Source: Clostridia bacterium
GTDB lineage: Bacteria > Bacillota > Clostridia > Christensenellales > CAG-138
Assembly (NCBI GenBank): GCA_017429985.1
Contig: JAFRNW010000019.1
Location: forward strand, 1-64,000
Direction of reading: 5' to 3'
DNA length: 64,000 nt
The position numbers and the translations under genes are program-made. Below the pieces are notes generated by a model. The model searched no databases. It was not told the origin of the DNA and saw only the letters and a program-made list of their open reading frames with translations. Below are positions 15,775 to 61,617 of this stretch, piece by piece. Each line of letters opens with the position of its first letter. Position 1 is the first letter of the stretch.

Positions 15775-15789
15775 GTAACAAGTATTTGC

Positions 15790-15990: not shown

Positions 15991-16037
15991 CGGATACTGA
16001 TAATCATCAGCCTGACAGGCCAAAAGGGGAAAGAGAC

Positions 16038-43318: not shown

Positions 43319-43368
43319 TTTTTGCTGTGCGGGGCCGGAGACCGTTTTTCCGGCATTTCAAACAAAAA

Positions 43369-43400
43369 AAGATTGCCGTTTTTGATAAAACAGCAATCTT
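43369..43400 (-). terminator. Original terminator of the disrupted tRNA-Arg gene
   Basis: AAGATTGC / GCAATCTT stem followed on the minus strand by a run of T. It lies 5 bases beyond the 3' end of the tRNA half at 43405, as expected for the terminator of the intact tRNA gene. Confidence 0.7.
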
Positions 43401-43404
43401 GTTC

Positions 43405-43449
43405 TGGCGTGCCTGGGAGGATTCGAACCTCTGACCTACAGAGTCGGAG
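43405..43449 (-). pseudogene. 3' half of the original tRNA-Arg(CCG), left junction of the island
   Basis: On the minus strand it reads from the anticodon loop CTCCGAC through the 3' anticodon stem TCTGT, T arm (AGAGGTTCGAATCCTCC), acceptor strand CAGGCAC and GCCA. There is no 5' half next to it. Its TCTGT pairs exactly with ACAGA of the orphan 5' half at 61453-61491, 18 kb away; joining the two at CTCCGAC gives a complete 77-nt tRNA. This is therefore the chromosomal remnant produced by integration in the anticodon loop. Confidence 0.85.
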
Positions 43450-43614
43450 AAGTACAGATAATGATTAGAAAAAAGTTAGTAGCATGGGGAAAAACGCTTA
43501 TTTTTGGCGGTTTTTGACAGCTTGGCTATGTCAAAATATATGATAAAGAGTATCGTTATAAAAGGCCTTTTTTAATAGCTCTGTAGTAAAAATGTAGTAT
43601 GTTTTCAGCTATAG
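43450..43614. repeat. Left arm repeat, copy 1
   Basis: Together with the adjoining tRNA half (43405-43614) it is a direct repeat of 51141-51351, nearly the same length and mostly identical by eye, ending in the identical TGTAGTATGTTTTCAGCTA. The double TGTAGTA motif 11 bp apart looks like arm-type binding sites of a tyrosine integrase. Confidence 0.8.
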
Positions 43615-43860
43615 ATATCCTTATAAGGAGTATCAGCAATGCCTATTGTATTTAGCCGCATATTCTTTTTGTCTAATATAGGTTTTCAGATATTCTAAAA
43701 CGGCCTGACATCATATACGATATAATTGCTGGAACTGTGTTTTAATGAGCATAAGGCTTTTCTGTGCATCGTTAGAATTATTTCTGTCAAACTAATGAGT
43801 TTTCGAGTATAATAATACAATTAAAATGATTTTTTTTCTGATTATTTGAGGTTAAAACTA
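43615..43860. other. AT-rich leader region of the dlt-like operon
   Basis: No gene. Very AT-rich, with several TATAAT-like and TTG-rich stretches (for example ATACGATATAATTGC near 43715 and AATAATACAATTAAAATG near 43810). The operon promoter must be here, but I cannot choose one with confidence. Confidence 0.3.
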
Positions 43861-45372
43861 GTGCGCACAAAAAACGTATTGGAGTATTTGGAAAACAGCG
43901 GCGCTCGATTCACAAACAAAACGGCGGTTATAGATGATTCTGGAGCCTGCACTTATCTGGAACTGCGGACTGTCTGTCAAAAGATCGGGACGGCTCTGGC
44001 ATGCAAGATTACTGTTGGTACTCCGGTGGCGGTACTAATGGAAAAAAGCATATCCGTTCTCCAGGCATTCTTTGGAATCGTTTATGCCGGTGGCTATTAT
44101 GTTCTGTTAAATCCCGACCTTCCAGAGAAGCGTCTGGGGCAAATCCAGAAAGTCCTGCAGGCTCCCATTGTCATCACGGACGCCGGGCATCACAACCTGG
44201 CCCGCACCCTGTTTCCCGAGAACGCAATATGTCGAATCGAAGAATTGGCCGACGGGCCGATCCAGGCAGAAGTCTTGCAAAGGATTCGCAACCGCATGAT
44301 CGATACCGACCCGTTGTATGCCAACTTCACCTCCGGCTCAACCGGTATTCCAAAAGGCGTGATGGTCAATCACCGCTCTGTAATCGATTTTATTGATGTC
44401 TTTACGGAACTATTCCGTCTGAATAATACGGATGTTTTCGGCAATCAAGCGCCTTTTGATTTTGATGTTTCCGTCAAAGACATCTATTCGTCCGTCTATG
44501 TGGGCGGAACGCTGGTCATCCTGCCAAAGCGTCTGTTCTCGAATCCGAAAGAGCTGCTGGATTGGCTCAATGACCGCAAGATTACAACCTTGATCTGGGC
44601 CGTCTCCGCCCTTTGCCTTGTCAGCACCTTTCACGGTCTTGACTACCGAACACCTGAAACGGTACGAAATGTGCTGTTCAGCGGCGAGATGATACCGGAG
44701 AAGCATCTGCGGACATGGCGTGATCATCTGCCCGACGCCCAGTTCGTCAATCTCTACGGCCCGACGGAGATCACCTGCAACTGCACCTATTACATTCTGG
44801 ACAAAAACCTCAATTATACCGAAGGCGTTCCCATTGGACGTCCGTTCCCCAACGAACACGTATTTCTGCTGGATTCAAATGATCAGGAGGTCAAGGCGAA
44901 AGATGTCGTTGGAGAAATATGCGTTCGTGGCACGGCACTTGCACTGGGCTACTGTCGCGCCCCAGAACAAACAGCAGCAGCCTTTACACAGAATCCTCTG
45001 AATATCTGTTATCCGGAGTTGATCTATCGCACTGGCGATTTGGGCAAATACAATGATCTCGGCGAACTCATGTTCTGCGGACGCAAGGATTTTCAAATCA
45101 AGTATATGGGTCACCGGATCGAGTTGGAGGAAATCGAGCGTGTCATCGGCGCGATGCCAGACGTGGAAAGATGCTGCTGTATATTTGATCCGCTGAAAAG
45201 CAAGTTGTATGGCTTTTATGTCGGACTTGCAGAGCCTAACGAGCTACGCAGACGGCTCCAGCAGGAACTTCCTCTCTATATGGTGCCCGGGGCTTTGCGC
45301 CAGCTGTCGGAGTTGCCTCTCAACAAAAACGGCAAGATCGACCGAAAGAGATTACTGGAACGAAAGGAATAG
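43861..45372 (+). CDS. DltA-like amino acid adenylation enzyme
   Basis: 503 aa from the GTG at 43861, preceded by GAGG. Adenylation motifs are all visible: A3 FTSGSTGIPKGVMVNHRS (about residues 160-177), A5 NLYGPTEITCNCTY, A7 YRTGDLGKYNDLGELMFCGR, A8 IKYMGHRIELEEIE and A10 LPLNKNGKIDRKRLLE. Length and order match D-alanine:carrier protein ligase DltA and the AMP ligases of exosortase-type clusters. It should activate an amino acid and load it on the small carrier protein encoded two genes later. Substrate is uncertain because a decarboxylase gene follows instead of a standard dlt neighbour. Confidence 0.9.
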   Translation: MRTKNVLEYLENSGARFTNKTAVIDDSGACTYLELRTVCQKIGTALACKITVGTPVAVLMEKSISVLQAFFGIVYAGGYYVLLNPDLPEKRLGQIQKVLQAPIVITDAGHHNLARTLFPENAICRIEELADGPIQAEVLQRIRNRMIDTDPLYANFTSGSTGIPKGVMVNHRSVIDFIDVFTELFRLNNTDVFGNQAPFDFDVSVKDIYSSVYVGGTLVILPKRLFSNPKELLDWLNDRKITTLIWAVSALCLVSTFHGLDYRTPETVRNVLFSGEMIPEKHLRTWRDHLPDAQFVNLYGPTEITCNCTYYILDKNLNYTEGVPIGRPFPNEHVFLLDSNDQEVKAKDVVGEICVRGTALALGYCRAPEQTAAAFTQNPLNICYPELIYRTGDLGKYNDLGELMFCGRKDFQIKYMGHRIELEEIERVIGAMPDVERCCCIFDPLKSKLYGFYVGLAEPNELRRRLQQELPLYMVPGALRQLSELPLNKNGKIDRKRLLERKE

Positions 45373-45375
45373 TTT

Positions 45376-46572
45376 ATGAACGACTCCCAACTGAAGGCGG
45401 TTCTGGAGTTGGAGAAAACTCCTCTCTATATTTTTGACCTGTCAGAGTTGTCAGACAGGATTTGTTTCCTGAGGAACCATCTGCCGGCATCCGTCCTGAT
45501 CTGCTATGCGGTGAAAGCAAATCCGTTCCTTGCGCAGGAGGTCAGCGGATTGGTGGAACGGCTGGAAATCTGCTCTCCGGGAGAGTATCGCATCTGTCAG
45601 AATCTCGGCCTTTCGCAGGAACAATTCGTAGTATCCGGTGTTTACAAAACACCTTCTCTGATGCACGACATGATAGCTCGGGACGATGCGACGGGGCTCT
45701 TCACGGTGGAGTCTTTGCAACAGTTTTTCCTTCTTTACGAGGAGGCTAAAAGCGGACACAAACGGATCCCTGTCCTGCTGCGCCTTACCAGCGGTAATCA
45801 ATTCGGTTTGGATGAGCCCGATGCGGAAAAGCTGATTGCAGACTACCAGCATGATGTGCACCTGGATATCCGGGGAATCCAATACTTCTCCGGAACCCAG
45901 AAGACTTCGCTGAAGCGACTTGAGCGGGAACTGGAATACCTGGACAGCTTTCTAGAACGGTTGCAGACCTCCTATGGTTACCGTGCTCAGGAGCTGGAAT
46001 TTGGGCCCGGATTCCCGGTGTCCTATTTTCAAGGGGAAGAACTGGCGGAGCCAGAGTTTTTTAAGAGCTTTTCCGCGCTGTTGACCGGGATGCGTTTCGG
46101 AGGACTGATTACGCTGGAGATTGGGCGAAGCATCGCGGCCAGCTGCGGCTACTACTTGACAAGAGTGGTCGATACAAAAATCAACAAGGGCCGAAACTAC
46201 GCCATTGTGGATGGGGGCATCCACCAGCTGGTCTACTTTGGTCAGTTTATGGCCATGAAGCGCCCTCACGTGCGTATTCTGTCCCCCTCCATCCGCGGAA
46301 GCGAGGAGGAATGGAATATATTTGGTTCTCTCTGTACCATCAACGACGTGCTAGTCAAAAGCCTTCCCCTGCCGGGGCTTCATGTCGGGGATACGCTCGT
46401 GTTTGAGAATACAGGCGCATACTGTATGACCGAGGGAATATCCCTGTTTCTCAGCCGAGACTTACCCGCCGTGGTGCTATTTCAGTGCAATGGCACGCCT
46501 CTCCTTGTGCGGGGCCATATCTCCACAGCTTTCTTAAATGCACCAGATTATGAAAGGAGTAATAAAAAATGA
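45376..46572 (+). CDS. Type III PLP-dependent decarboxylase (LysA/ODC-like)
   Basis: 398 aa. The PLP lysine is in ICYAVKANP (about residue 45). Other fold-III decarboxylase marks are ELEFGPGFPVSY (phosphate/Gly loop), LEIGRSIAASCGYYLTRVV, the catalytic-Cys region FGSLCTINDVLVK and GAYCMTEG. The pattern is closest to diaminopimelate/ornithine-type decarboxylases and to the exosortase-associated decarboxylase family. It lies 3 bases after the adenylation gene and its stop overlaps the carrier gene start, so it is an integral step of the pathway: it may make the amine or amino acid that is loaded, or act on the carrier-bound substrate. Confidence 0.88.
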   Translation: MNDSQLKAVLELEKTPLYIFDLSELSDRICFLRNHLPASVLICYAVKANPFLAQEVSGLVERLEICSPGEYRICQNLGLSQEQFVVSGVYKTPSLMHDMIARDDATGLFTVESLQQFFLLYEEAKSGHKRIPVLLRLTSGNQFGLDEPDAEKLIADYQHDVHLDIRGIQYFSGTQKTSLKRLERELEYLDSFLERLQTSYGYRAQELEFGPGFPVSYFQGEELAEPEFFKSFSALLTGMRFGGLITLEIGRSIAASCGYYLTRVVDTKINKGRNYAIVDGGIHQLVYFGQFMAMKRPHVRILSPSIRGSEEEWNIFGSLCTINDVLVKSLPLPGLHVGDTLVFENTGAYCMTEGISLFLSRDLPAVVLFQCNGTPLLVRGHISTAFLNAPDYERSNKK

Positions 46573-46796
46573 AACAGTTAATTGAGATTCTGGAGGATGT
46601 CAATCCGGGCGTGGATTACAATACTTGCACCGATTTGGTTGACGGCGGTTACCTTAATTCCCTCTCCATCCTCGCTATAGTGGCGGAACTGGAAGAAGCA
46701 TTCGACATTGTGATCTCAACAGTAGAGGTAACTCCGAAAAACTTCAACTCCGCCCAGAGTCTTTGGGAAATGGTGCTGCGGCTGAAAGAAGAATAA
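46569..46796 (+). CDS. DltC-like acyl/peptidyl carrier protein
   Basis: 75 aa, the size of DltC. The phosphopantetheine serine is in GGYLNSLSILAIV; the canonical DSL is NSL here, with the serine kept. The start overlaps the decarboxylase stop (ATGA), and the MBOAT gene starts 4 bases after its stop. It should carry the activated amino acid as a thioester to the membrane acyltransferase. Confidence 0.87.
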   Translation: MKQLIEILEDVNPGVDYNTCTDLVDGGYLNSLSILAIVAELEEAFDIVISTVEVTPKNFNSAQSLWEMVLRLKEE

Positions 46797-46800
46797 TACA

Positions 46801-48402
46801 ATGCTCCCGTTGTCTTCCTATTTCTCACTGCTTTACCTAGCAATACTGTTGCCGGGAACCGTGCTGGCTTATACTGTCCTTCCGCAAAAATATCGTCGTG
46901 CAGTACTCTTGCTGAGCAGTTACGCCGTGTTCTGGCTCGTCAGCGGGAAACTGCTGTGCTATCTTCTATTTTCCACTATCTCGGTTCATCATATCGGCTT
47001 GTGGTTGGAGAATACCCAACTCGAGGCAAACAGGCTGCTTGAGACTGCGCCGAAAGAAACGCGAAAGGACATTCGGGCACGGACTCAGCAGAGACGGAAA
47101 AAAATAGTAGCATTTGGGATTGCTGTGCAGTTCGGTATTTTGCTGGCGTTGAAATACGGGGCGTTTTTCATCTCCAACTTCAACGAACTTGCTGACTTAA
47201 TGAAGGTTACAGTGAAACTACCTGTCCCTTCCGTCATTTTGCCGATTGGCATCTCCTTTTATACCATGCAAGCAGCATCCTACATGCTGGATGTGTATCG
47301 AGAGAATATCCCTGCAGACCGAAATCTGATGCGTCTCGCTCTTTACATGAGTTTTTTCCCCCAGCTCATGGAAGGGCCGATCTGCCGATATTCAGAAACC
47401 GCGCAGCAGCTCTGGGACGCTCCGCCTATGCGTTGGAAAAACTTAATGTTAGGCCTCCAACGCATTCTGTGGGGCATCATGAAAAAAATGGTGGTTGCCG
47501 ACCGCTTGAATCTGTTAATCACTGAAGCGTTTGACAACTATGTCCACTACGACGGATTCATGATTGCTGCAGCTGTCGTGTGCTACACAGTTCAACTCTA
47601 TATGGACTTCTCCGGCACCATGGATCTTGTGCTGGGCAGCGGACAGATATTCGGCATCAAACTGCCGGAAAACTTCCAGCGCCCCTTCTTTTCACGCACG
47701 ATTCAGGAGTTTTGGCGTCGCTGGCATATTACGCTTGGTGCATGGTTCCGAGACTACGTTTTTTATCCTATATCACTCAGCGCTCCAATAAAAAAGCTGC
47801 CTCTCCTGCTACAAAAACGGCTGGGAAGAACCTACGGGTTCATTTTTTCCAGTATACCCGCCCTGTTCTGTGTATGGTTATGTAACGGTCTGTGGCACGG
47901 GGCAGGCTGGAACTTTATTTTTTTCGGGATGTACCACTTTGCTTTGATCCTTGTTGAAAATATAATGGAACCCCCTGCTGTCTGGCTGGCAAAAAGGCTC
48001 CATATCAACCGGGACGGCATTCTGTACCGATGTATGCAGATCGTCCGCACCGCCGTACTATTTTGCATCGGCGAACTGTTTTTCAGGGCATCTTCCCTGA
48101 AAGCGGGGTTTGCCATGTTTAAAAAGATATTTACTGATTTTACACTGGCAAGAGTTAAAGATAACACATTCTTTTCCCATGGTGCAGATAAGCATGATTT
48201 TTTAATCGTTGTCGTGACACTGGCGTTGATTCTGGCGGTCGGGTGCATCCAGGAACGAGGAGTTTCCGTGCGACAGTGGATAGAAAAGAGAAATCTTGCG
48301 GTCCGTCTTTCTCTGTGGTATCTTCTGATTCTTTTTATCGTGATATTCGGCGCATACGGTACCGGATATATTCCGGTTGACCCAATCTATGCAGGCTTCT
48401 AG
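46801..48402 (+). CDS. DltB-like MBOAT O-acyltransferase
   Basis: 533 aa with about 11 hydrophobic helices. MBOAT signatures: FFPQLMEGPICRYSE, EFWRRWHITLGAWFRDYVFY and the catalytic histidine in CNGLWHGAGWNFIFFGMYHF. Relatives include DltB, AlgI and PatA, which pass an acyl group across or at the membrane onto a polymer. Here the donor should be the carrier-protein thioester. Longer than DltB (about 400 aa), closer to the AlgI type. Confidence 0.92.
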   Translation: MLPLSSYFSLLYLAILLPGTVLAYTVLPQKYRRAVLLLSSYAVFWLVSGKLLCYLLFSTISVHHIGLWLENTQLEANRLLETAPKETRKDIRARTQQRRKKIVAFGIAVQFGILLALKYGAFFISNFNELADLMKVTVKLPVPSVILPIGISFYTMQAASYMLDVYRENIPADRNLMRLALYMSFFPQLMEGPICRYSETAQQLWDAPPMRWKNLMLGLQRILWGIMKKMVVADRLNLLITEAFDNYVHYDGFMIAAAVVCYTVQLYMDFSGTMDLVLGSGQIFGIKLPENFQRPFFSRTIQEFWRRWHITLGAWFRDYVFYPISLSAPIKKLPLLLQKRLGRTYGFIFSSIPALFCVWLCNGLWHGAGWNFIFFGMYHFALILVENIMEPPAVWLAKRLHINRDGILYRCMQIVRTAVLFCIGELFFRASSLKAGFAMFKKIFTDFTLARVKDNTFFSHGADKHDFLIVVVTLALILAVGCIQERGVSVRQWIEKRNLAVRLSLWYLLILFIVIFGAYGTGYIPVDPIYAGF

Positions 48403-48415
48403 GAGGAACGGCTTA

Positions 48416-49369
48416 ATGATTTATCTAAAACGAACGGGCTGTGTCATGTTATTCCTGCTGGGGCTGCTGGTAATACTGCTTGCTGCCTCTGCCATTTTCA
48501 AGCCAAAGAACAACATCCCATCGGCAGGGATGGAGGAAACACTTGCAAACGGTATTCTGGGTGAGCCGGAAAACACGATTGATGTTTTGATCATTGGTGA
48601 CAGCGAATCCCGTTGCGCCATATGTCCCATGCAAATTTGGAAAGAAACCGGATTCACCACATATGTGTGTGCGACAGCAGCCCAAAAGCTTTCTTACAGT
48701 TATACCATGCTCGACCGCGCATTTCAGCGACAAAAGCCAAAAATCGTAATTCTTGAGACGCTGGCGATTTTCCGGGAGATGTCATTGGAAGACGCGGTTA
48801 AAGAAATATTATATCATAGGCTTCCTGTTCTCCGCTATCATGATCGATGGAAATGTTTGCATGCCAATGATTTTGGTGGTGCGGTTCTGCCAGTCTGGAC
48901 CAATGACAGCAAAGGATATTGGAATACAAAAAAGGTTGATCCCGGTAGTAACGAGCCGTACATGGGTGCCATGGATAACAAATCAAGCGTCTCACTGCTG
49001 AACAGACGTTATGTCCGGGCCATTAAAACACTTTGTGAAAAAAACGGATCCCGACTTCTTCTGTTGAGTACGCCCAGCACCATCAATTGGAATTATGCTC
49101 TGCACAATGGCATTCAGGCAGTAGCTGAGGAACTGGGTATTGAATACATCGACATGAACCTCATGAACGACCGTATCAAAATTGACTGGAGCAGGGATAC
49201 TTTCGACAAGGGCGACCATTTGAACCACAGCGGCGCAGTCAAACTTTCCTTGGTACTGTCAGAGTATCTGCAAGAGCAAGGCATTTTCAAGGATCACCGT
49301 GGCGATCAAGCTTATGCAAAGTGGGAGGATATTCTGAAAAACCGCGGGACCGAACCTGAAGAAGAATAA
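48416..49369 (+). CDS. SGNH/DltD-like membrane-anchored protein
   Basis: 317 aa from the ATG at 48416, preceded by AGGAGG. One N-terminal hydrophobic helix (MLFLLGLLVILLAASAIF) is followed by an extracytoplasmic SGNH-type domain: VLIIGDSESRCAICPMQIW (GDSx nucleophile) and FDKGDHLNHSGAVKLS (Asp/His pair). By analogy with DltD and AlgX/AlgJ it would complete the transfer of the modifying group on the outer face. It is the last gene of the operon. Confidence 0.88.
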   Translation: MIYLKRTGCVMLFLLGLLVILLAASAIFKPKNNIPSAGMEETLANGILGEPENTIDVLIIGDSESRCAICPMQIWKETGFTTYVCATAAQKLSYSYTMLDRAFQRQKPKIVILETLAIFREMSLEDAVKEILYHRLPVLRYHDRWKCLHANDFGGAVLPVWTNDSKGYWNTKKVDPGSNEPYMGAMDNKSSVSLLNRRYVRAIKTLCEKNGSRLLLLSTPSTINWNYALHNGIQAVAEELGIEYIDMNLMNDRIKIDWSRDTFDKGDHLNHSGAVKLSLVLSEYLQEQGIFKDHRGDQAYAKWEDILKNRGTEPEEE

Positions 49370-49468
49370 TTGTTTTCATAATCCTCCCTGCTGGTCTTGA
49401 TAATCTCCGGAGCATGAACGCTCAAATGAGTTCAGAATGCATTTCAAAATGATCGACACAGAAACTAC

Positions 49469-50806
49469 ATGAGCCTGACTATGATTGCGAGACGAATCAT
49501 CACCGTTGTCTTGTTACTCATTGTGATGCTTTTTCTGGAACTGAATCAGCATTTTACATGGGGTATGTTTCTGACCGTTCATTTGACCACTACGATTTTC
49601 ATATTGTTCGAAGCGAAACTTCTGCCGGGAATTCCGCAAGGCAGCAGCGTGGACGGGCTATATCCTCCTTACCGCGCTCATTCTTGTCATCACGTTCCCT
49701 TCCATAATCAGGTCGATGCGATTAACAGAAAAACCTGCAGAGAAACAGGCGCTGTAGCGATGAAGGACGGCAAAGTCAGCGGTGTCATGAGGGCGGACGG
49801 AGCGACGCGGACATCCCGTACTCTGCTCCACCCATGAGAGATCTTTGCTGTAAGGAACCGCAGGACGTGACCGCCTAGGATGGGACCCTAAAAGCAAATC
49901 ATTTTACTGCCATGTCCATGCAGATCCGGAAGCTCCCAATCATAGACTCCCTCACGAATATCATAGACAATCACGATTACAGCTGGCTAGATTTCAGTGA
50001 CAACTATATCGCTACGGCATCTAAGGACTCGCTTTACGAAAATGTTAGGAAACCCGCGGGAGAACAGAAGAATCTCCCGTACTGGTTTTCGTTCACGGCT
50101 ACTCCCTGCTGTCCGGCCAGCCCTGGTACGCGGATTACAGCGGCGAATGCCTAGCGCGGGACAGCGTCATCGTCGTCAATATAGGATGCCGTCTGTGCGC
50201 ATTCAGATTTCTTGCTCTGGACAAACTTGCCGCGGAATCTGAACACTGCACGACCGGAAACCACGATCTTCTGGATTAGATCAAGGCGCTGGAATGGGTC
50301 CGGGACAATATCGCTTCCTTCGGTGGCGATCCTGATAACATCACCGTGGCTTGAGAATCCTCTGGCGCCTCTTCCGTGAGCGTCCTCTGTACTTCGTCTC
50401 TTGCGGCTGTTCCGCTGGGTCATTCTGGAAAGCTCCATCGTGGCTAGCCGGAAGCCGCCTCATTCCTTCTGCTCCATGGAGGAAGCACTGCCTTCTTGAA
50501 AAGAAGTTCTTCCACGATACCATGCAAAAAACGTATCGGATCTGCGCAGACTGCCCGAAGATTCAATCGCGGGATCCATGGATACGGAACACTACATCAC
50601 CGTGGACGGCTACGTCCTGCCTGAAACGCCCTGTCAATCCTATCAAAAGGGCATTCATAACGAGGAAGCTATCCTACACGGGTTTCTGTCGCTTGTCATT
50701 TGCGATGGGAAATGCTGATATTGCCGTCAAAAATAGGGCAACAGCGGTGGCTCCGCCGCATTACGCGGATGGTGTGGTGCAGATTCTGGAGCGTTACTTC
50801 CTGTAA
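49469..50806 (+). pseudogene. Decayed carboxylesterase/lipase (type B) with membrane N terminus
   Basis: Pieces of one protein are spread over several frames. Order: a membrane N terminus (IARRIITVVLLLIVMLFLE, then YILLTALILVITFPSIIRSM in another frame), KDGKVSGVMRADGATRT, SLYENVRKPAGEQKNLPYW, LEWVRDNIASFGGDPDNITV and VDGYVLPETP near the end. The nucleophile elbow reads TGA-ESSGASS, that is GESSG with the first Gly turned into a stop. Multiple stops and shifts make it clearly dead. It lies at the right end of element A. Confidence 0.75.
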
Positions 50807-51140
50807 AAGCATTTGCCTCTAGTATTTATCCAGAGGCAAATGTTTTTCATATAGTATTGGCGCGTGCAAATCAGGTCAACGAAGTGTTCCAATCAGTTTT
50901 ATCCTGCTTTTTTCTCCCTGTTGTTTAATTTCTTTATGCCGGTGAGCAATATAGTTCAAAAGAAAATGTAGTAAAATGTAGTAAATCTGGATTTTAGGAC
51001 CGAAAAACGGCTTTCTTGAAAATGCATAAACAGAAGGATATGCATTTTGAACAATAGACTGTAATTCTTTTTTGTAGAAAAAATCTGCTACAAAAATGCA
51101 AAACAAATGCCCCGAAAACATAGTGTTTTCGGGGCTTTTT
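50807..51140. repeat. Right arm region of element A with terminator
   Basis: No gene. It contains the doubled ATGTAGTAAAATGTAGTAAATC (arm motif, about 50966-50987), an inverted repeat AAAATGCATA / TATGCATTTT (about 51018-51047) and a hairpin CCCCGAAAAC / GTTTTCGGGG with CTTTTTT (51110-51140) abutting the tRNA half. The same sequence of features recurs at 61152-61332. Confidence 0.75.
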
Positions 51141-51185
51141 TGGCGTGCCTGGGAGGATTCGAACCTCTGACCTCAAGAGTCGGAG
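51141..51185 (-). pseudogene. Second tRNA-Arg 3' half at the junction of elements A and B
   Basis: It reads CTCCGAC-TCTTG-AGGTC and then the same T arm and acceptor as the other copies. Its anticodon-stem strand TCTTG does not pair with the local 5' half (ACAGA); it would need CAAGA. It therefore came with an element from another host or tRNA variant and is not the original chromosomal sequence. Confidence 0.8.
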
Positions 51186-51351
51186 GAGTAAGGATAACGA
51201 TTCGAAAAAAAGTTAGTAGCTTGGGGAAAAACGCCTATTTTTGGCGATTTTTGACGGATTGGCTATGTCAAAATACATGATAAAGAGACTTGTTAAAAAA
51301 GGCCTTTTTTATTAGTTCTGTAGTAAAAATGTAGTATGTTTTCAGCTATAG
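51186..51351. repeat. Left arm repeat, copy 2
   Basis: Direct repeat of 43450-43614, including AAAGTTAGTAGC, GGCTATGTCAAAATA, AAAAGGCCTTTTTTA and the doubled TGTAGTA motif (51320-51338). Confidence 0.8.
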
Positions 51352-51359
51352 AACATAAG

Positions 51360-52370: not shown

Positions 52371-52399
52371 CGTATGTACAAATGCTTGGAGTCGAGTTT

Positions 52400-53450: not shown

Positions 53451-53527
53451 GGGAGATCAAGCCCTGATACAGCGTTCAGATCCGGATCCCGTTCTTCTTA
53501 CGGCTTTCCGCTTCAGTCTTTTCCTTG

Positions 53528-54010
53528 TCAGTCGGACCAGCTGGGCTCGTCCCCCTCTTCGGAAATGCTGACGATATCCACGGCGTTCTCAATCAATTTG
53601 ATCATTTCCCATATGGAACGGAACTGGATGGTCTTGTCCGCCTCCATCCAAGTGATCCGCCCCTGCCAGCTGCTGTTCTGCCTGTGCTGGACGCGGATGA
53701 TGAAAGTGCCGATATCTCCGTGTTTCTGGAGAAGCTGTTCGTCGCTCATGACTTTGGTCCTTTCCTGATGTGATGAAAATGGTTTGTTTTGAGGGAAAAA
53801 GCTTCGTTCGTTAGTCCCAGGATGCGGAAACTGCAGTTCATCAAACAACTTTTCCATGAGAAGCGTCATCTGTCCAAGGTCCGAGAAAGGCGTGGGATCC
53901 GTCTGGTAGGCGTGGAAAAGATCCCCCGTAAATTCCCAGTCGTTTCTGTGGTCGATACAGACGACGACGGCGTTTGGTGCTGCGATATACCACTGTGAAT
54001 GCTGTTCCAT
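53528..54010 (-). CDS. 160-aa protein paired with the BTAD regulator, unknown function
   Basis: 160 aa from the ATG at 54010 (GAGG about ten bases upstream), 11 bases after the regulator stop. Residues 1-45 (YIAAPNAVVVCIDHRNDWEF) look like the end of a sensor or response domain. The C-terminal part GTFIIRVQHRQNSSWQGRIT and TIQFRSIWEMIKLIENAV is a short module I have the impression occurs with clostridial BTAD proteins, but I cannot name it. Cytoplasmic; probably works with the upstream regulator. Confidence 0.7.
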   Translation of the reverse strand: MEQHSQWYIAAPNAVVVCIDHRNDWEFTGDLFHAYQTDPTPFSDLGQMTLLMEKLFDELQFPHPGTNERSFFPQNKPFSSHQERTKVMSDEQLLQKHGDIGTFIIRVQHRQNSSWQGRITWMEADKTIQFRSIWEMIKLIENAVDIVSISEEGDEPSWSD

Positions 54011-54021
54011 AGATGCGCACC

Positions 54022-55227
54022 TCACTCCTGCGGTGTCCAGAACACGCTGTTCACATAGTACTCGATCCCGGTGCGCTGGCGGCCGACGAGAAAGTGCGCA
54101 TTGATGCGCTTCTGGATCACATTGCAGTTCTCGCGCGTGGTGTTGATAAGGAGCACCAGATACTGTCCTTTTCCGTAGCGGCACATTGCGTCACCGCGGC
54201 GGATCGAACGGCGAATTGCATCCCCCATCCTGCTGACCAGCTGATTCAGGACATCTCCCTCGCGCATGGGATTGCCTTTACTGTCCACAATCGTGCACAG
54301 CATGATGTATACCGACTGTCCTCCGCGCTCAAGCATGCGTTCGACCATGCGATAGATTCCAAGGAACACCGGGTAGTTGCAAAGGTATCCGCCTTGCGAT
54401 CTGTCGTGCGCCCCGGTAAGTTCCGACTGGATCTGATCCAAGACAGCGTGCCGGTACTGCATCTTTTCCCCGAGCCGGTCGAATTGCTCCATGAGCCTCT
54501 TCGACGGCCTCAGACCCTGCTCGTTGAAATAAAACTGGACCGTGCTGTCATATAGCTTCCGTGCATCTTCCGCGCGTCCAAGTGAAACGAGTGCTTCCAT
54601 GGTGATCGTTTCCCAATCCGCGAGAGGATCGATCCGGGCGGCATAAAGGCCAAGGTCCTCCATCTGGAAATAATCCTGACTGACTCGGAGGAGCTCAGAC
54701 GCCCGCTCGACAGCGGTGCAGAACAGCTCCTTGTATCTTCTGGCTTCCCGCGCAGCCCAAACGGCGCTCGTATGAAATGTCAGGAACTCTCCGCTGTAGG
54801 CATAGCATGCTTGTAGGTAGAGGGACAGCCGTTCATCCAGATCCTTTGTATTCTCCGCCTCGTGGAACAATTCCTCAAAGGTGAAGGCATCCACGACGGT
54901 GGGAACGGAATCCGACCAGCGAAACACGCCCTTTGTCTGTTCGATGCAGTTTTCCGCCGGAATCCCGGCTTTCAGAAGTTTCTGCTTGGTGTTGTAGATG
55001 ACGCTCTGGAGCGCATGATGGATGTTGTTCATGTCCCTGTCGCTGAACAGCAGCTCTTCCAACTTGTCCCGGGACACGCCCTTTTCCTTTTCATGGATGA
55101 GGATCTGCAGAAGGCTGGTGTTCTGGGAATCGATCGCCTTGGAACCGCCGGCGACAAGTTTCCCGTTCCAACGGAGAGAAAAGCCTCCGAGCATTCTTAC
55201 ATACAGAACGTTTTCCTGCTCTTTCAC
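54022..55227 (-). CDS. SARP/BTAD-type regulator with degenerate GGDEF-like C terminus
   Basis: 401 aa from a GTG start with GAAGGAG. The N terminus VLYVRMLGGFSLRWNGKLV and NIHHALQSVIYNTKQKLLKA form the winged-helix DNA-binding domain of SARP proteins. Helical BTAD repeats follow (about residues 115-265). The C-terminal 130 residues show GGDEF-like spacing (DAIRRSIRRGDAMCRYGKGQ then YLVLLI) but lack the GGDEF catalytic motif, so it should bind rather than make a nucleotide, if anything. It may control the adjacent secreted protein gene. Confidence 0.82.
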   Translation of the reverse strand: MKEQENVLYVRMLGGFSLRWNGKLVAGGSKAIDSQNTSLLQILIHEKEKGVSRDKLEELLFSDRDMNNIHHALQSVIYNTKQKLLKAGIPAENCIEQTKGVFRWSDSVPTVVDAFTFEELFHEAENTKDLDERLSLYLQACYAYSGEFLTFHTSAVWAAREARRYKELFCTAVERASELLRVSQDYFQMEDLGLYAARIDPLADWETITMEALVSLGRAEDARKLYDSTVQFYFNEQGLRPSKRLMEQFDRLGEKMQYRHAVLDQIQSELTGAHDRSQGGYLCNYPVFLGIYRMVERMLERGGQSVYIMLCTIVDSKGNPMREGDVLNQLVSRMGDAIRRSIRRGDAMCRYGKGQYLVLLINTTRENCNVIQKRINAHFLVGRQRTGIEYYVNSVFWTPQE

Positions 55228-55839
55228 TTGGATCTCCTTCGTCGCGGAGGTTTTCCGCGAAAAAACCCGATTTCATCCGCGAAAACGTCAAACACGTGCG
55301 GATTTTCTGTTCAGTAGTAACAAATCATTCTACCACGTACGGAATCTGTACGCACGTTTTTTATCGAGATAACGGTGTCAAACATCTCATATTCTGACAT
55401 CCATTTATATGCGTTAACACGTGTTCGTTTCCTTTCGGTTGAGTCTGCTAACAAAAAACGATGAGACGTTCCGTGTTCTTTTTCAATCTCTTTTCCGCTA
55501 TTCAGTTTTCAAGCTTTCCACAAAAATCGTTGATGAACCACAAAAAAAGCCCATCGTTCCGACAGGCGCTTCATATCCGCTCCGCGCCATCGGTCAAGCT
55601 TTGGCACCTTGCCGTGCGGTCAACGAGATTGTCTCTCGCACGCTCTTTATGGCACTACGACTGTAACAGTTTGGATCCTGCGCGTCAAAGCTTTTCTACG
55701 GATCGGATCATATCACCTCATGCTTTACTGAACCGGAAAAGCCAGACCCCTGCCAACACGAGCAAAAGCCCCAGGAATATCGTTCCTGGGGCTTCTGCAG
55801 ACTAGCTGTGGTTCATTGTTCGTCGGAGGTTCCAATTCA
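55228..55839 (-). other. Intergenic stretch with terminator and an unexplained repeat-like block
   Basis: At 55767-55793 AGCCCCAGGA / TCCTGGGGCT plus a minus-strand TTTTGCT is the terminator of the large secreted-protein gene. At about 55460-55690 lies GC-rich sequence with no good ORF; on the minus strand it ends with CTTGAAAACTGAATAG, similar to the tails of clostridial rRNA spacers. I see no gene. Confidence 0.45.
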
Positions 55840-58800
55840 TCAGAACGCATTCTCAATGGTGAAGAAGTCGTATTCCGGGTGCGCCTCGTCGTAGGAATCC
55901 CTGTCAAGGACCGGGGAATAGGTCGCTACCGCGATCGTTCCCGCTTCGGCGTTCAGGGTAATCATGCGGAAGAAGCCGAGGCCGTTTTCTACGTCTGAAG
56001 CGTAGTTGTACATGATCGCGTTCGCGCTGCGTCCGTCTTCATAGGCCTTGCTCCAGCGCGCTGCGCCTTCCGCATTGCCAGAGAGGATCAGGGAAACGTT
56101 GCTGTTGACAGCGACGATCTCGGATTCGACCAGTTTGCCGAACGCTGTCAGCGTTCCATGATCGAGCGTGTCTGCCGGATTCTTTTCGATGAAGTCATTT
56201 ACAAGGAGAATCACGGTATATTCCGAATACGCGGCAAGCATGTCGTTTACGTACTGGATCCATGCCTGCTGAGCACTGCGCTCTTCATCTGTGGCATTCC
56301 CGTCGAGCACCTTCTGGCTTCCGATGCCTACCATAAGGACCTGATTGTCGGCAAACGGATGGACCCAGACGCTGCCGTTACTGTTTCTTTTTGCTGCTTC
56401 AAAGATACCGTTGCTGAGATAATCCGTATAATCTGCGTCGGCACCGACTTCGTTGCATCCCGCGATGTTCAGATAGGGAAGTTCGCCGTTCTTTCTGTTC
56501 ATCCCGTCCAGCGCATCACGGATCAGCTTCCAGGCGGCTTCGTCCTTGCCGTCGGCAACCGCGTTCCCCGTCCCGATTAGAGCGGATGCTCCAAGGAATC
56601 TGTTCTCTTTCAGATACCGGATCATTGCCTGGTAGGCTTCCGCCTGTTTTCCACCCGCTGTCAGATCAGTATCCGAGGTGAGGATGAAAGACATCGAGCC
56701 GATCATTCCGAGAGGAACCTCTTCGTCCGCAATGGTCGTGGTGGTTGATTTTTTGGTCGGAGTATCTTTTTTCGTTTCCGCCGTGAATGAACCATGGATC
56801 GTTACATCCTGCGCCGGCATCGTGAAGGTCTCACTGTCCCATCCGCTGAATGTATACCCCTTCGCGACAGCGTTTTCCGCGATAACGACCTTGCTGCCGA
56901 ATTTTCTGGCCGTTGCTTCCGGAAGCTCGGATGCACCGGAAGGAACCTTGCCGGAGTACTCATAGGAAACCGTGTACTGATTGCGGTCGTAATAGAGGTT
57001 CAGGACCAGGGAATCGTCCAGTGCGACCGTTCCGTCGGATATGGACGCTGCTTCATTGTAGCGGAAACCTTCGTAGCTGTTGGCGTCCACGCTGATCGCT
57101 TTTCCGGTCAGAGCGCTTTCTTCTTTCTTCTCGGCGAGCGTGTATCCGTCTGTGTCCGCATTTTCGAGGTAATGGTTGACCGTGTACAGGGAGGCCGGAA
57201 CATGGCTGTTGGTGATCACTGCGCGGTTTGCGCCATCGCTTGCAACGGCCTTTTCATATCCGTCCGCAACTTCCGTTTCATCCGCGCTGTACCGGATCAG
57301 CTGATCGGCAGCATAGGCGTCCAGACCCGAGAAGGTGTAAGACCATCCGTTTGCTTCGGAAAGGACCGCTGTCCTGCCTTTGACCGGTTTTCCGTTTGCA
57401 AGAAGCTGCACGGAGACGCTGCCCGGACGGATCCCGTCCTTGTCGTCCGCGTCGTTCCAGACTTTCCGGACGGAAAAGCTTGTCGTGTATTTCGCGTAGA
57501 CGTTGTATTCCTTCGCAGTATTCGCATTCGATGTAACTGCGGGGAGTTTATACTCGAATCCCTTGGAAAGGAGTTCCCCTTTCTCGTTGTACCAGCCCTT
57601 GAACGAGATATCCGCCTTGGATTCTTCTTTCGTCAGGGAAGGCTCATAGCTGTACACGGAGATTCCGGACTTGAACTGCTCCTCGCTGTGTGCCAGCGTG
57701 CCTTTCACATACCAGTTGACCGTAACGGAGGGTTGCCATTTCGCAAGGAAGGTAATGGTCTTCGTGCTCCCGGGCGCCTGATCCGCGCCGTCATAGGTGA
57801 AAGATCGTCCGGCAGTATAGATCGAACCGTCATCGGTGTTGTACCAGTGAACAAACCTGTAGTGACTGACCGGTGTCTTTTTCGACGGATCCGAGAACGT
57901 ATGGGTGAAGCTGGAGGCGGAATCAAGATTGCTCCAGGAACCGGAACCGGTAGAAACGTTGTCGATATAACGGTAGTTCAAATACCAGTTCTGCGTCACT
58001 TCGTATACCGGGGAGATGCTGATGCGGAGATCGCCGTTTTCATCTTCGGTGAACAGTCTTGTCGAACCATCGGTGAAGTAGACCGTTGCTTCGTTGACAC
58101 CGCCGGAGGACTTGTTGCAACGGAACGCGATCTTGGAGATCTCGCTGCTGCCGCCGGCCAGCGTGAATGCGTTCAGGAACTTGTAATTCGCTCCGATCCC
58201 GGAAGCTGTCCGGTTCTTGCCGCCCACATAGGAGAAGAATCCGCTGATCAGTTTGGTCTGGTTGGATGCCGTGAACGATACATACTTTGTCGCAGGAACT
58301 GCTTTTCCGCCGACAGCGCTTACGGTTGCGTCATAGATGCCGGTAATCGCAACGACGATGGACCCTTTGCTGAGCGTGTCGTATGCGGCGGTATAGGTCT
58401 TGTCTCCGCTGACGGACACGACGTTCGGCGTGAATTTCGAAAAGACATAGTAGTTTTTGTCGCTTTCAGCAGATTCCCGGACGGGCGTCTCTCCGCTGTA
58501 TGCGGGAATGGAACCCTTCGCGGCGTATTCTTCCTTCAGCACTGATCCGTCCCAGTTTGTCCAGGTGATCAGGTACATTTCCGAAAAGACCGCGGTGTAG
58601 ACCTGATCGCTGTCCGCTTCCTTGACCGCGGGAGTCCAGCCTTTGAACTGATATCTGCACTTCGCAGAAGCCGCTTTCTCGGGGACTGCGCCAGTATACG
58701 AGGGAATAATTCCCTCTTCCACTTCTTTTGTCATAAGGACTGTTCCGTCCGCGTTTTTCCAGGTAATGGTATAGAACACGGGAACAAGCTTGGTCTCTTC

Positions 58801-59415
58801 CTCTTCCGCGTCTTTGAACGTTTCTTCCTCTTCGGTTTCGAGAGCTTCGGGCAGAGCTTCTGCGATTTCTTCTTTCACCTCAGAAAGCTCTTCTGCATTT
58901 TTATCGGTATCCGCTCCGGAAGCTTCCGCGGCGGACTCCTCGGCTTTCTCCTCTTTCAGGGCCTCGGAGAGATCGGCAATCTCCTTGTCGCCAGCCTCTT
59001 CGACGGCTTCAGAAGCAGCCTGCTCCTCCTCCTTCTCTTCCCGGATTGAAGCCTCATTGACCTTAACGGAATCCGCTTCTTTGATTTCGGCGTTTTCCGC
59101 TTTCTTTTCTTCGGCAGCTGCCGCGATTTCGCTGGAAGCCGGCTTGCTTTCGGCCCTGTCTGCGACGTCTTCCGCCTTTGCTTCCTCAGCTGTGCTGGTT
59201 TTCTCTTCTGATTCCTGCTTGGCAGGACGGATCTCTTCTTTCATTTCCGAAGACTCAGAAGCTTTTTCCGTCTCCTTGACCGCCGACTTATCTGCGATCG
59301 GTTCAGACGGCATGTCCGACACATCGGATCCGTCGGCAAGAGCCGTCGGAACGAGCGCCGCAAGCATCATAACAGCGAGTGTCAGGGAAAGGATTCTCTT
59401 CAAAAACGACTTCAT
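55840..59415 (-). CDS. Large secreted repeat protein with degenerate phosphoesterase-like C terminus
   Basis: 1191 aa. Signal peptide 1-27 (ILSLTLAVMMLAALVPTALA). Residues about 30-205 are Glu/Ala/Lys/Ser-rich and probably helical. Then two Flg_new/InlB-type repeats (YTITWKNADGTVLMTKEVEE and YLITWTNWDGSVLKEEYAAK), a middle region, a Cna_B-like domain (FSVRKVWNDADDKDGIRPGS), a MucBP-like part (VNHYLENADTDGYTL) and another InlB-like repeat. The last 270 residues resemble a calcineurin-like phosphoesterase whose metal motifs are changed (IAGCNEVG for GNHE, LSGNAEG for SGHxHG). No LPXTG or other clear anchor is present. Confidence 0.85.
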   Translation of the reverse strand: MKSFLKRILSLTLAVMMLAALVPTALADGSDVSDMPSEPIADKSAVKETEKASESSEMKEEIRPAKQESEEKTSTAEEAKAEDVADRAESKPASSEIAAAAEEKKAENAEIKEADSVKVNEASIREEKEEEQAASEAVEEAGDKEIADLSEALKEEKAEESAAEASGADTDKNAEELSEVKEEIAEALPEALETEEEETFKDAEEEETKLVPVFYTITWKNADGTVLMTKEVEEGIIPSYTGAVPEKAASAKCRYQFKGWTPAVKEADSDQVYTAVFSEMYLITWTNWDGSVLKEEYAAKGSIPAYSGETPVRESAESDKNYYVFSKFTPNVVSVSGDKTYTAAYDTLSKGSIVVAITGIYDATVSAVGGKAVPATKYVSFTASNQTKLISGFFSYVGGKNRTASGIGANYKFLNAFTLAGGSSEISKIAFRCNKSSGGVNEATVYFTDGSTRLFTEDENGDLRISISPVYEVTQNWYLNYRYIDNVSTGSGSWSNLDSASSFTHTFSDPSKKTPVSHYRFVHWYNTDDGSIYTAGRSFTYDGADQAPGSTKTITFLAKWQPSVTVNWYVKGTLAHSEEQFKSGISVYSYEPSLTKEESKADISFKGWYNEKGELLSKGFEYKLPAVTSNANTAKEYNVYAKYTTSFSVRKVWNDADDKDGIRPGSVSVQLLANGKPVKGRTAVLSEANGWSYTFSGLDAYAADQLIRYSADETEVADGYEKAVASDGANRAVITNSHVPASLYTVNHYLENADTDGYTLAEKKEESALTGKAISVDANSYEGFRYNEAASISDGTVALDDSLVLNLYYDRNQYTVSYEYSGKVPSGASELPEATARKFGSKVVIAENAVAKGYTFSGWDSETFTMPAQDVTIHGSFTAETKKDTPTKKSTTTTIADEEVPLGMIGSMSFILTSDTDLTAGGKQAEAYQAMIRYLKENRFLGASALIGTGNAVADGKDEAAWKLIRDALDGMNRKNGELPYLNIAGCNEVGADADYTDYLSNGIFEAAKRNSNGSVWVHPFADNQVLMVGIGSQKVLDGNATDEERSAQQAWIQYVNDMLAAYSEYTVILLVNDFIEKNPADTLDHGTLTAFGKLVESEIVAVNSNVSLILSGNAEGAARWSKAYEDGRSANAIMYNYASDVENGLGFFRMITLNAEAGTIAVATYSPVLDRDSYDEAHPEYDFFTIENAF

Positions 59416-60034
59416 TTGGAACCTCCGGTTTCGGATCCGCCGCAGCAGATCTCTTTTTCATGTCTTTAGTCTAACCGGGGTGCTGTCACTAAAATAATCA
59501 AAAAAAGCAGAATAAAAAGGTAATTTATCAAAAATTTAGGATCTTCAACAAAAGTTGTGGAAAGCTTGCCTCGTTGAAGGCAGTGATAGGTATTTGATCA
59601 AGGTAAAGAAGTAGTCGTCATTGCGGTATCCGCAGCCGACACGCTTCGTGACCTTGGTCTTATTATTGAATCCTTCCAGCTTTCCGGTACTGATCGGATA
59701 AACCGTTTTAAGATCCTTGACCTGAAACACGCCTATACACTCGTGTTTGAGTACATTGAAGCTTTTTACAATACCGTCAGAATCCATAGCCATTGTAATT
59801 ACATGTCCCCTGATCAGTTCGAAAAGCTTTACCGCAAGCTCACCGTTGCTTAAGGGGATGACCAGGAACCTGTTCTCAGTATTTATTCTCTATGTGGAAA
59901 ATCTCTCATTTTAATTTGCGCTAAATCTTGACATAGGACCACACGGATACCCTTCTCGAGATCATCCGTAATCTCTTTCATTCTTTCATGTTGCTGATCT
60001 GCATCTCTGTCTCCTCTTTTTTGGTAAAAGAAAA
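59416..60034 (-). mobile_element. Transposase remnant (ISL3-like) and flanking decayed sequence
   Basis: Only the C-terminal 70-80 residues of a transposase survive (59545-59793), including YPISTGKLEGFNNKTKVTKR and GCGYRNDDYFFTLIKYLSL, typical of ISL3-like DDE enzymes. The sequence around it up to about 59945 shows no intact frame; GGTCCTATGTCAAGATTTAGCG (minus strand, about 59915-59936) may be an IS end. Not functional. Confidence 0.6.
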
Positions 60035-60055
60035 ACGCCTGCAAAGCAGACGTTT
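60035..60055 (-). terminator. Terminator of the double GNAT gene
   Basis: AACGCCTGC aaa GCAGACGTT stem (one mismatch), followed on the minus strand by TTTTTCTTTT. Confidence 0.65.
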
Positions 60056-60088
60056 AACCAGACAAACTGGAATTTGTCAGTGTGCCGG

Positions 60089-60961
60089 TCAAAGTGATCT
60101 CTGCATACAATACATGGTATGCCCCTTCGGATAATCCTCAAGCACGCCGGTCACTGTCCCATAACCATTCTTTCGGAAAAACCCAACGTTCCAATCATAT
60201 GCTTCAAGAAACACGACGTCGGCCCCGTTTTCTTTGGCCTCCCGCTCATACTCGCGGAGCAGCCGGGTACCGATCCCTTGCCCCCGGTATGGCTCGTCCA
60301 CCCAGAGCGCATCGATATCCGTGCCGTTCCATCCGTCTACGCCACCGACAAGACCGGCTATGATCCTGCCGTTCTCATCCGTGACCTTTTTCTCGATGGA
60401 AACGTATTCGTGCCCGCGCGGCGCGAATGCTTCGACGTGTCTGCGCAGTCTGCCGGAGAGGAACTCCGCATCCTCTTTGCCGCCCGGGACGATCTCATAT
60501 TTATTGGTGTTTGAAGGATCGTGTTCAATTGCGGTTTGATCGAGCCTTTTCGTCATGAAATAGTGCTCATGTCCCTTCGGAACACCCGTCATCGTGTCAT
60601 TCACCATATAGCCGTGGTTTTCGTAGAACGATTTTGCCTGAAAATCGAAAGTTCCGACCATGGCGAGATAGCAGTCAAGCTCTTTTGCTCTCTTCTCAGT
60701 CTCCTTGATCAGCGCGGAGGCAATACCCTGACGACGGTATGCTTCCTCTACCCACAGATCGAATATCGACGCTGTCTTCCGTTCATCGACTGTCAGAATA
60801 CATCCGCCGAGAAGACTTCCTTTTTCATCTGTGACTTTATACACGAATTCTTCTTCCTCGGCACCTTCTTCAGGCGGAGCGATGGTATCGAACACCCGGC
60901 CTGCCTGTTCTTCAATGTATTCAGCGTCTTCTTCAGAACAATGCATCATATTGAATGACAT
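60089..60961 (-). CDS. Tandem GNAT N-acetyltransferase
   Basis: 290 aa made of two GNAT domains, residues about 1-145 and 155-290. Acetyl-CoA loops are VEEAYRRQGIASALI and VDEPYRGQGIGTRLL. Both halves end with a similar GxPKGHxxYxM motif (VPKGHEHYFM, YPKGHTMYCM), so the gene arose by internal duplication. Substrate unknown; resistance to an antibiotic or detoxification is possible but not shown. Confidence 0.88.
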   Translation of the reverse strand: MSFNMMHCSEEDAEYIEEQAGRVFDTIAPPEEGAEEEEFVYKVTDEKGSLLGGCILTVDERKTASIFDLWVEEAYRRQGIASALIKETEKRAKELDCYLAMVGTFDFQAKSFYENHGYMVNDTMTGVPKGHEHYFMTKRLDQTAIEHDPSNTNKYEIVPGGKEDAEFLSGRLRRHVEAFAPRGHEYVSIEKKVTDENGRIIAGLVGGVDGWNGTDIDALWVDEPYRGQGIGTRLLREYEREAKENGADVVFLEAYDWNVGFFRKNGYGTVTGVLEDYPKGHTMYCMQRSL

Positions 60962-61332
60962 TTCATTTCCTCCTCAAATCCCGATTAGCTGAGATCATTA
61001 TCCCAAAGAAGGAATGTCATCGCAACCGCGGGAAGTCAATGTTTTCAATGACTTTATCGGATGAATTTTCATTCGGAATCATTGTATATATGAGGGAGGA
61101 GACAACCGGGAAAAAGACGATAAATACCTGTCAAAAAAACATGATTAAAATAAAAATGTAGTAAAATGTAGTAAATCTGAAAAAACAGCTTAGAAAATGG
61201 TCGTTGAAAATGTATAAAAGCACGGTTTATGCATTTAGAATGGAAGGCTGATGCTGATCCGAGTTGTACCCCCATCAATAACGGAAGCGAAAAAATAAAA
61301 GTCCCGAAAACGTTGATTTTTCGGGACTTTTT
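60962..61332. repeat. Right arm region of element B with terminator
   Basis: No gene. It holds ATGTAGTAAAATGTAGTAAATC (about 61157-61178), an inverted repeat AAATGTATAAA / TTTATGCATTT (about 61208-61237) and the hairpin GTCCCGAAAA / TTTTCGGGAC with TTTTTT (about 61300-61332), the same order as at the right end of element A. Confidence 0.7.
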
Positions 61333-61409
61333 TGGCGTGCCTGGGAGGATTCGAACCTCTGCCCTTTGGAGTCGGAGTCCAACGCTCTTTCCAGCTGAGC
61401 TACAGGCAC
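61333..61409 (-). tRNA. tRNA-Arg (anticodon CCG), complete
   Basis: 77 nt including encoded CCA. Acceptor GTGCCTG / CAGGCAC, D arm GCTC-AGCTGGAAA-GAGC, anticodon arm TTGGA-CTCCGAC-TCCAA (CCG, reads CGG), T arm AGAGG-TTCGAAT-CCTCC with one A-C mismatch at its base. Its D and anticodon arms differ from those of the split chromosomal gene, so it was brought by an element and now probably serves as the functional gene. The promoter at 61589-61617 reads through the orphan 5' half into it. Confidence 0.93.
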
Positions 61410-61452
61410 ACAATAAAGTTTATGCATTTTTCAAGAACCATAGACCGTCAGC
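61410..61452. other. 43-bp remnant between two tRNA-Arg sequences
   Basis: On the minus strand the orphan 5' half continues as GCTGACGGTCTATGGTTC and then TTGAAAAATGCATAAAC before the complete tRNA. The last part resembles the arm inverted repeat near 51013 (CTTGAAAATGCATAAAC). It is probably what remains of a further element at this site. Confidence 0.5.
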
Positions 61453-61491
61453 GTCGGAGTCTGTCACTCTATCCAACTGAGCTACAGGCAC
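61453..61491 (-). pseudogene. Orphan 5' half of the original tRNA-Arg(CCG)
   Basis: GTGCCTG-TA-GCTC-AGTTGGATA-GAGT-G-ACAGA-CTCCGAC, then unrelated sequence. ACAGA pairs with TCTGT of the 3' half at 43405-43449, not with the copies at 51141 or 61333. It is thus the host promoter-proximal part of the disrupted gene. Confidence 0.85.
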
Positions 61492-61588: not shown

Positions 61589-61617
61589 ATTATATCACAT
61601 CGATTCAGTCAGGACAA
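61589..61617 (-). promoter_or_regulatory. Promoter of the tRNA-Arg locus
   Basis: On the minus strand TTGTCC (61612-61617), a 17-bp spacer and TATAAT (61589-61594), overlapping the end of radA. It originally drove the now split tRNA and should now drive the imported copy. Confidence 0.5.

Follow-up and report, generated by a model that had tools for sequence, protein, structure and literature searches.

A tRNA-Arg(CCG) gene lies in two pieces in the 64,000-nucleotide window examined here (the whole stretch of DNA that was analysed, from a Clostridia bacterium), and the 18 kb between its halves holds two units that lack an integrase and agree in their cores and arms. Along the minus strand, to which the positions of radA, the tRNA features and the arm repeats refer throughout, the order is radA (61605-62942), the putative extended -10 promoter-like element TGATATAAT of the native tRNA (61589-61597), the native 5' half (5'A), a spacer, a complete tRNA-Arg(CCG) (tRNA B) with its terminator, unit 2, a further 3' half (3'C) with its terminator, unit 1, and the displaced native 3' half (3'A) with its terminator. 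Joined at CTCCGAC, 5'A (61453-61491, core included, stem ACAGA) and 3'A (43405-43449, core 43443-43449, stem TCTGT) are called as tRNA-Arg(CCG) by ARAGORN, and their anticodon stem pairs at 5/5 positions, against 3/5 for 5'A with 3'C and 2/5 with the third 3' half. Folding energy alone, calculated for the joined tRNAs, was not discriminating. An earlier note on this DNA had read the two halves as one tRNA whose anticodon stems fit each other, with a terminator of its own behind the 3' half (the hairpin at 43366-43402), and had proposed a split inside the anticodon loop followed by accretion of two recombinase-less units; all of this is supported.

The native gene is interrupted, as that note held, but it is not merely split, since the island contains a complete replacement. 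The core at 61371-61377, previously taken for a plain att site, is the anticodon loop of tRNA B (61333-61409, stem TTGGA/TCCAA), which the note had missed and which scores 64.7 bits with Rfam as well as being called by ARAGORN. A terminator hairpin follows it (61297-61331), and a 43-nt element-borne spacer (61410-61452), containing TTCTTGAAAAATGCATAAA and no promoter of canonical spacing, separates it from 5'A. tRNA B is the sole intact tRNA-Arg(CCG) found in a genome that is 98.1% complete: a whole-genome search with the CCG anticodon loop and T loop pattern gave tRNA B and the two displaced 3' halves as its only tRNA-like matches, and the other BLAST matches examined were Arg(ACG), Arg(TCT) and Met tRNAs. 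The native gene has thus been lost and replaced. Every host gene checked contains CGG codons, and this codon use together with the copy number suggests that the split gene was a single-copy tRNA essential to the host.

The point of crossover can be located closely. Three cores named in the earlier note are borne out, as GAGTCGGAG occurs at 43441, 51177 and 61369 and nowhere else in the window, but a fourth core, CTCCGAC at 61453-61459, had been overlooked. This attL core is the 7-nt anticodon loop of 5'A and forms the true left edge of unit 2. Between the inferred attP of unit 2 and the native site, the longest contiguous identity at the junction is these 7 bp, and because the match extends no further, insertion rebuilds nothing of the host tRNA and leaves its 5' half orphaned. 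Related elements in different hosts behave in the same way, with identity beginning at the core: in one pair of genomes (G026/G093) only 18/60 positions agree before the 5' half, followed by 50/50 across core and spacer and 78/78 across the tRNA. Four further pairs (G080/G095, G087/G091, G012/G096 and G099/G103) show the same pattern, while in G094/G106 the resemblance extends upstream as well. The spacer between 5' half and element tRNA is conserved among elements in different hosts.

An empty site, which the earlier note had suggested looking for, was found for a relative. In G012 (Clostridia metagenome-assembled genome RGIG5880), native halves with stems TTAGA and TCTAA flank a 52.8-kb element, and the joined halves are 79/79 identical to the uninterrupted tRNA of G079, a genome of the same genus. 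The RadA protein next to the window's native tRNA has counterparts, 57-66% identical by tblastn, adjoining tRNA-Arg(CCG) in seven other genomes (G003, G006, G009, G029, G031, G119 and G123), and in four of these (G029, G006, G009 and G031) radA precedes an unbroken gene.

The arrangement recurs widely. In 103 same-family genomes, largely metagenome-assembled, we searched for a 5' half ending in CTCCGAC followed after 35-62 nt by another 5' half, with the reversed pattern as control. The tandem pattern was present in 21 genomes, every one of which has a complete tRNA-Arg(CCG) downstream of the orphan 5' half (21/21), and the control gave 0 matches; nor was there a match in the genomes sampled from the order's other families. 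The same design is found at tRNA-Arg(CCT) in 12/103 genomes, of which ARAGORN confirms 11 and the twelfth runs off its contig. It is also present in a genome of another family (G237) and perhaps in G307, where the contig is cut and no complete tRNA was called. The anticodon of the replacement is always that of the destroyed gene, so that CCT elements carry CCT tRNAs, and element tRNAs differ from native ones in both acceptor and anticodon stems. In two genomes (G003 and G099) three 5' halves follow one another, and 5' halves in stacks are spaced 82-90 bp apart.

Two related loci in these genomes deserve mention in their own right. At G001:C8 ~71750-72030 (L067 7750-8030), an attP-like chromosomal arrangement consists of arm-like sequence, a CTCCGAC core, a spacer and a complete tRNA-Arg(CCG), but has no orphan 5' half; it lies ~25 kb from another inserted copy and shares its terminator with a third complete tRNA. 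At G079:C10 (L154), an unbroken native tRNA is followed by a short 3'-half remnant, an element-type terminator and TTTACTACA arms, and probably represents a decayed element.

The element in G012 begins with a complete tRNA (stem CAAGA/TCTTG), followed by a tyrosine integrase gene (PF00589) 190 bp away and then by a gene for an HTH_17 protein. Pfam also identified a relaxase (PF03432), a coupling protein (PF02534) and a TraG/VirB4-like ATPase of a type IV secretion system (PF19044), and the element is an integrative and conjugative element (ICE). 3'C of the window (51141-51185, stem TCTTG, core 51179-51185) is of the same type as its tRNA, with 98% identity over 45 nt. The 5' half belonging to 3'C (5'C) is absent from the window.

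To compare promoters, the 120 nt upstream of each gene were scored by a consensus scan against TTGACA-N16-18-TATAAT (maximum 12). Outermost native CCG 5' halves scored 9-12/12 with a perfect -10 (TATAAT, 6/6) at 20 of the 21 junctions, the window being among the 21. Element CCG tRNAs scored 7-8/12, apart from a single 10 in G064, where the scan reached the native promoter. At tRNA-Arg(CCT), most native halves scored 11-12 and spacers 5-8. These predictions suggest that transcription from the host promoter continues across the orphan 5' half into the element tRNA.

Based on these observations, we propose, at a probability of about 0.85, that these elements destroy a tRNA-Arg gene at its 7-bp anticodon loop, supply a complete promoterless tRNA with the same anticodon, and stack serially. 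An incoming element would use site-specific recombination by a tyrosine recombinase to enter the loop of tRNA-Arg(CCG) or, in some elements, that of tRNA-Arg(CCT), and would destroy the host gene, as attP and gene have only this loop in common. Compensation would come from the tRNA carried 30-55 nt inside attP (43 nt in the window) and ending in its own terminator: the host tRNA promoter would transcribe orphan 5' half, spacer and element tRNA together, and RNase P would free the tRNA. Because the host gene supplies the promoter, the element tRNA would be expressed only when integrated. With its anticodon loop intact, the new tRNA may also serve as a fresh attB, and as the replacement is itself a target, later elements could stack upon it, giving arrays with 5' halves at one end and displaced 3' halves between the bodies.

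Applied to the window, this mechanism suggests that unit 1, with a tRNA of type C, and then unit 2, with tRNA B, accreted on native tRNA A. Since 5'A and 3'C pair at only 3/5 positions, the tRNA that came with unit 1 was probably complete at first and lost its 5' half afterwards, probably by deletion between 82-bp direct repeats. If unit 2 were excised by itself (61453 x 51179), the poorly paired 5'A-3'C would remain; if both units were excised (61453 x 43443), a perfect native tRNA would be re-formed. We are inclined, with some reserve, to go further and regard the system as a promoter trap that replaces its target gene, with an open-ended stacking site that records past insertions and, in the window, two units locked together as a composite. 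A promoterless essential tRNA would be switched on by correct integration alone, each insertion would regenerate its own target, and the loss of 5'C would leave unit 2 no solo exit save through a poorly paired tRNA, though both units could leave cleanly together.

The two units are alike in architecture. Direct repeats run in register across them (86 nt at 43364/51100/61292, and 147 nt at 43469/51206 with 92% identity; the terminator after 3'C is at 51105-51139), and the arm-to-core distances agree closely, at 212/202 and 214/204 bp on the left and 139/150 and 140/151 bp on the right. Unit 2 has two TTTACTACA left arm repeats at 61154-61175 and right arm repeats at 51319-51338; those of unit 1 lie at 50964-50985 and 43582-43601. 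Pfam scans bear out the earlier note in that neither unit has a recombinase gene, and with att sites at both ends and neither recombinase nor conjugation genes they have the make-up of cis-mobilizable elements (CIMEs). No phage structural gene, of the kind that a temperate phage would carry, was found among the Pfam-scanned open reading frames of the window. The window units can at best be regarded as derivatives working in the same way as integrase-bearing elements such as that of G012, and with no integrase of their own they would need one in trans, which is plausible. The G012 element has arm repeats TTTTGACTGCA at both ends, in place of the window's TTTTACTACA, and so the two presumably use different integrases. 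A search with PF00589 over the whole window genome found four integrases, none on the window contig; three (L010, L011 and L012) are near tRNA-Leu, tRNA-Met and tRNA-Ser genes. The second of these, 40% identical to the G012 integrase, was considered as a helper and rejected, being beside tRNA-Met without TTTACTACA arms. Also in the window's own genome, a further integrase from that broad family adjoins tRNA-Met (L106 11452-12627, in G000:C6); its neighbour resembles, by eye, a 606-aa protein of the G012 ICE. Viral contigs searched for the arms and for the junction gave no match, and one relative only of the G012-type integrase, at 29% identity, was found among them. Window arms were found elsewhere in the family in G001, G069, G079 and G084 by strict search, the last with window-type TTTACTACA arms at tRNA-Arg(CCT), and also in G017.

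The cargo of the units differs from the flanks in base composition (GC 0.48 in the ~7.7-kb body of unit 1, 43450-51140, and 0.50 in the ~10.2-kb body of unit 2, 51186-61332, against 0.56). By Pfam, unit 1 encodes an AMP-binding enzyme, a pyridoxal phosphate (PLP) decarboxylase-like protein, an MBOAT acyltransferase and a HAD remnant. Within it, the stretch 43846-49369 looks like a Dlt-type D-alanylation operon to which a PLP enzyme has been added: it comprises the AMP-binding enzyme, the PLP decarboxylase/alanine racemase-like protein, the acyltransferase and a 330-aa protein that has no match in Pfam. Unit 2 encodes an RCC1-like protein, a NUP (purine nucleoside permease family) protein, a BTAD regulator, a 1191-aa Cna_B surface protein, an ISL3 transposase remnant and a double GNAT protein. 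Its NUP gene is split over overlapping frames (52382-52918 and 52725-53768) and apparently frameshifted, the surface protein (55840-59415) has Cna_B repeats and a long, acidic, low-complexity N-terminal region, and the transposase fragment (PF01610) lies at 59545-59793. A SpaA-fold surface protein is also carried by the G012 ICE. Elsewhere in the window, a raiA RNA (RF03072) was detected at 15788-15992 with 169.7 bits.

Several observations weigh against the proposed mechanism or complicate it. In G017 the same arms accompany one uninterrupted tRNA, which would fit ordinary restoration by a 3' half, so the whole-tRNA strategy is not common to every related element. Further complete copies of tRNA-Arg(CCG) are present in G001, which means that the replacement is not indispensable in every case. 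At 8/12, the lowest value among the 21 junctions, the native promoter of the window ranks as weak on this simple scale, and of the earlier claim that the 5' half has its own promoter there stands the putative TGATATAAT, ~100 nt upstream of the half. The missing 5'C requires one deletion in the history of the window, and the evidence comes from contigs of metagenome-assembled genomes. For the window itself, no genome of the same genus was found with which to compare an empty site, and the right flank, with its DUF6442 gene, matched no relative in synteny. No integrase was found beside TTTACTACA arms anywhere searched. The tyrosine integrase that the earlier note had suggested seeking next to the same arms was found neither in the window genome nor in the five arm-bearing relatives, in which relatives of the four query integrases were likewise absent next to the arms, several contigs being short and some flanks incomplete.

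Could these be conventional tRNA-targeted islands of the Islander or CIME type, each restoring the gene by a 3' half, with the remaining 3' halves as ordinary displaced fragments? Each unit does carry a 3' half and terminator, G017 looks conventional, and this is the usual mode, a 3' fragment being left by 3760/3919 islands in Islander (PMC4383910). The native 5' half of the window, however, continues into no 3' half: 43 nt further on comes a complete tRNA whose anticodon stem is different, and 5'A with 3'C pairs only 3/5. The simple form of this explanation is already refuted by the orphan 5' half and complete tRNA at 33 CCG and CCT junctions, and as a whole we consider it very improbable. 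Scarcely better is the view that the tRNA gene was duplicated in tandem on the spot and decayed, and that the islands came in afterwards for unrelated reasons. The 82-90 bp period does resemble a tRNA array, and spacers often start with ~10 nt like a tRNA 3' side, which led us to consider the spacer as a decayed 3' half; beyond those 10 nt, however, it was no more tRNA-like than shuffled sequence and the idea was rejected. Spacer and tRNA also move with the element between hosts that differ upstream, and the differing acceptor and anticodon stems of element and native tRNAs speak against common descent by duplication.

An error of assembly or binning might be suspected, given that the window genome is in 46 contigs and its relatives are largely metagenome-assembled, but 21 independently assembled genomes have the same arrangement with different sequences, and 12 have it at another tRNA, which makes an artefact barely credible. 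We give equally little credence to expression of the halves as a split tRNA joined in trans. In its favour, the halves are complementary, and each retains either a terminator or sequence resembling a promoter. Against it, the genome has a complete tRNA-Arg(CCG), the surroundings of the halves showed no intervening complementary sequence, and trans-spliced split tRNAs have been described from archaea. We continue to favour replacement of the target tRNA by one borne on the element.

tRNA genes are favoured docking sites for mobile DNA, usually explained by elements rebuilding the gene they enter. At the two tRNA-Arg loci described here, an apparently essential tRNA is instead discarded and exchanged for a foreign one, in about one-fifth (CCG) and one-tenth (CCT) of the family genomes searched, indicating that tRNA genes in these bacteria are replaceable horizontally. 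Capture of a host promoter suggests a simple way of tying a rescue gene to integration, and serial replacement would explain the pile-up of integrase-less cargo at one locus. Arrays of 5' halves may offer a readable history of insertion, and the principle may suggest a design for integration vectors selected only after correct insertion.

CIMEs and accretion are known as recombinase-less units bounded by att sites, forming tandem stacks and presumed to be moved in trans, with the classical cases restoring their target by a partial copy. The window units share the recombinase-less, att-bounded tandem organization; the difference is that a complete gene is supplied here, which would become the next target. 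The tandem islands of Islander, where attP is anticodon-centred in 2083/3919 islands (PMC4383910), are likewise similar in their tRNA target and displaced 3' fragments, but the Islander model comprises one regenerated tRNA and a fragment, and an orphan 5' half beside a complete foreign tRNA falls outside it.

The closest parallel is tRNA-dependent lysogeny, in which actinophages are able to break an essential tRNA gene and make up for it with one of their own (Guerrero-Bustamante & Hatfull 2024, PMC10865867). The principle is the same, as the target tRNA is not rebuilt and the cognate tRNA is supplied by the element. The tRNA of phage Fionnbharth, however, is served by a strong promoter of its own and overlaps gene 37 (PMC10865867), whereas the tRNAs described here are promoterless, lie 30-55 nt inside attP, probably depend on the host promoter, provide a new attB and stack. 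In phage Gaia, tRNA-Leu starts 287 nt after the end of int; its attP could not be placed by k-mers in common with Gaia's own tRNA. A possible earlier case is Lactobacillus johnsonii prophage Lj965, cited as not rebuilding its target and coding for the cognate tRNA (PMC10865867). Its annotated tRNAs (Ser, Glu, Tyr and Phe) are at 12.8-13.4 kb, ~11.5 kb from int at 119-1294 and thus away from the attachment site, which the tRNA adjoins here. Pseudomonas phage PPpW-3 has a complete tRNA-Arg(TCT) (L179 2998-3074), unannotated in the phage record, ~300 nt from the integrase gene and may be an instance of tRNA-dependent lysogeny outside actinophages.

A literature search, subscription journals aside, returned no description of an attP-linked promoterless tRNA, of such stacking or of use by an ICE. 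The underlying principle is that of tRNA-dependent lysogeny, here extended from actinophages to an ICE and integrase-less elements in Clostridia; what is new is the promoterless tRNA linked to attP, the serial stacking, and the kinds of element that use them.

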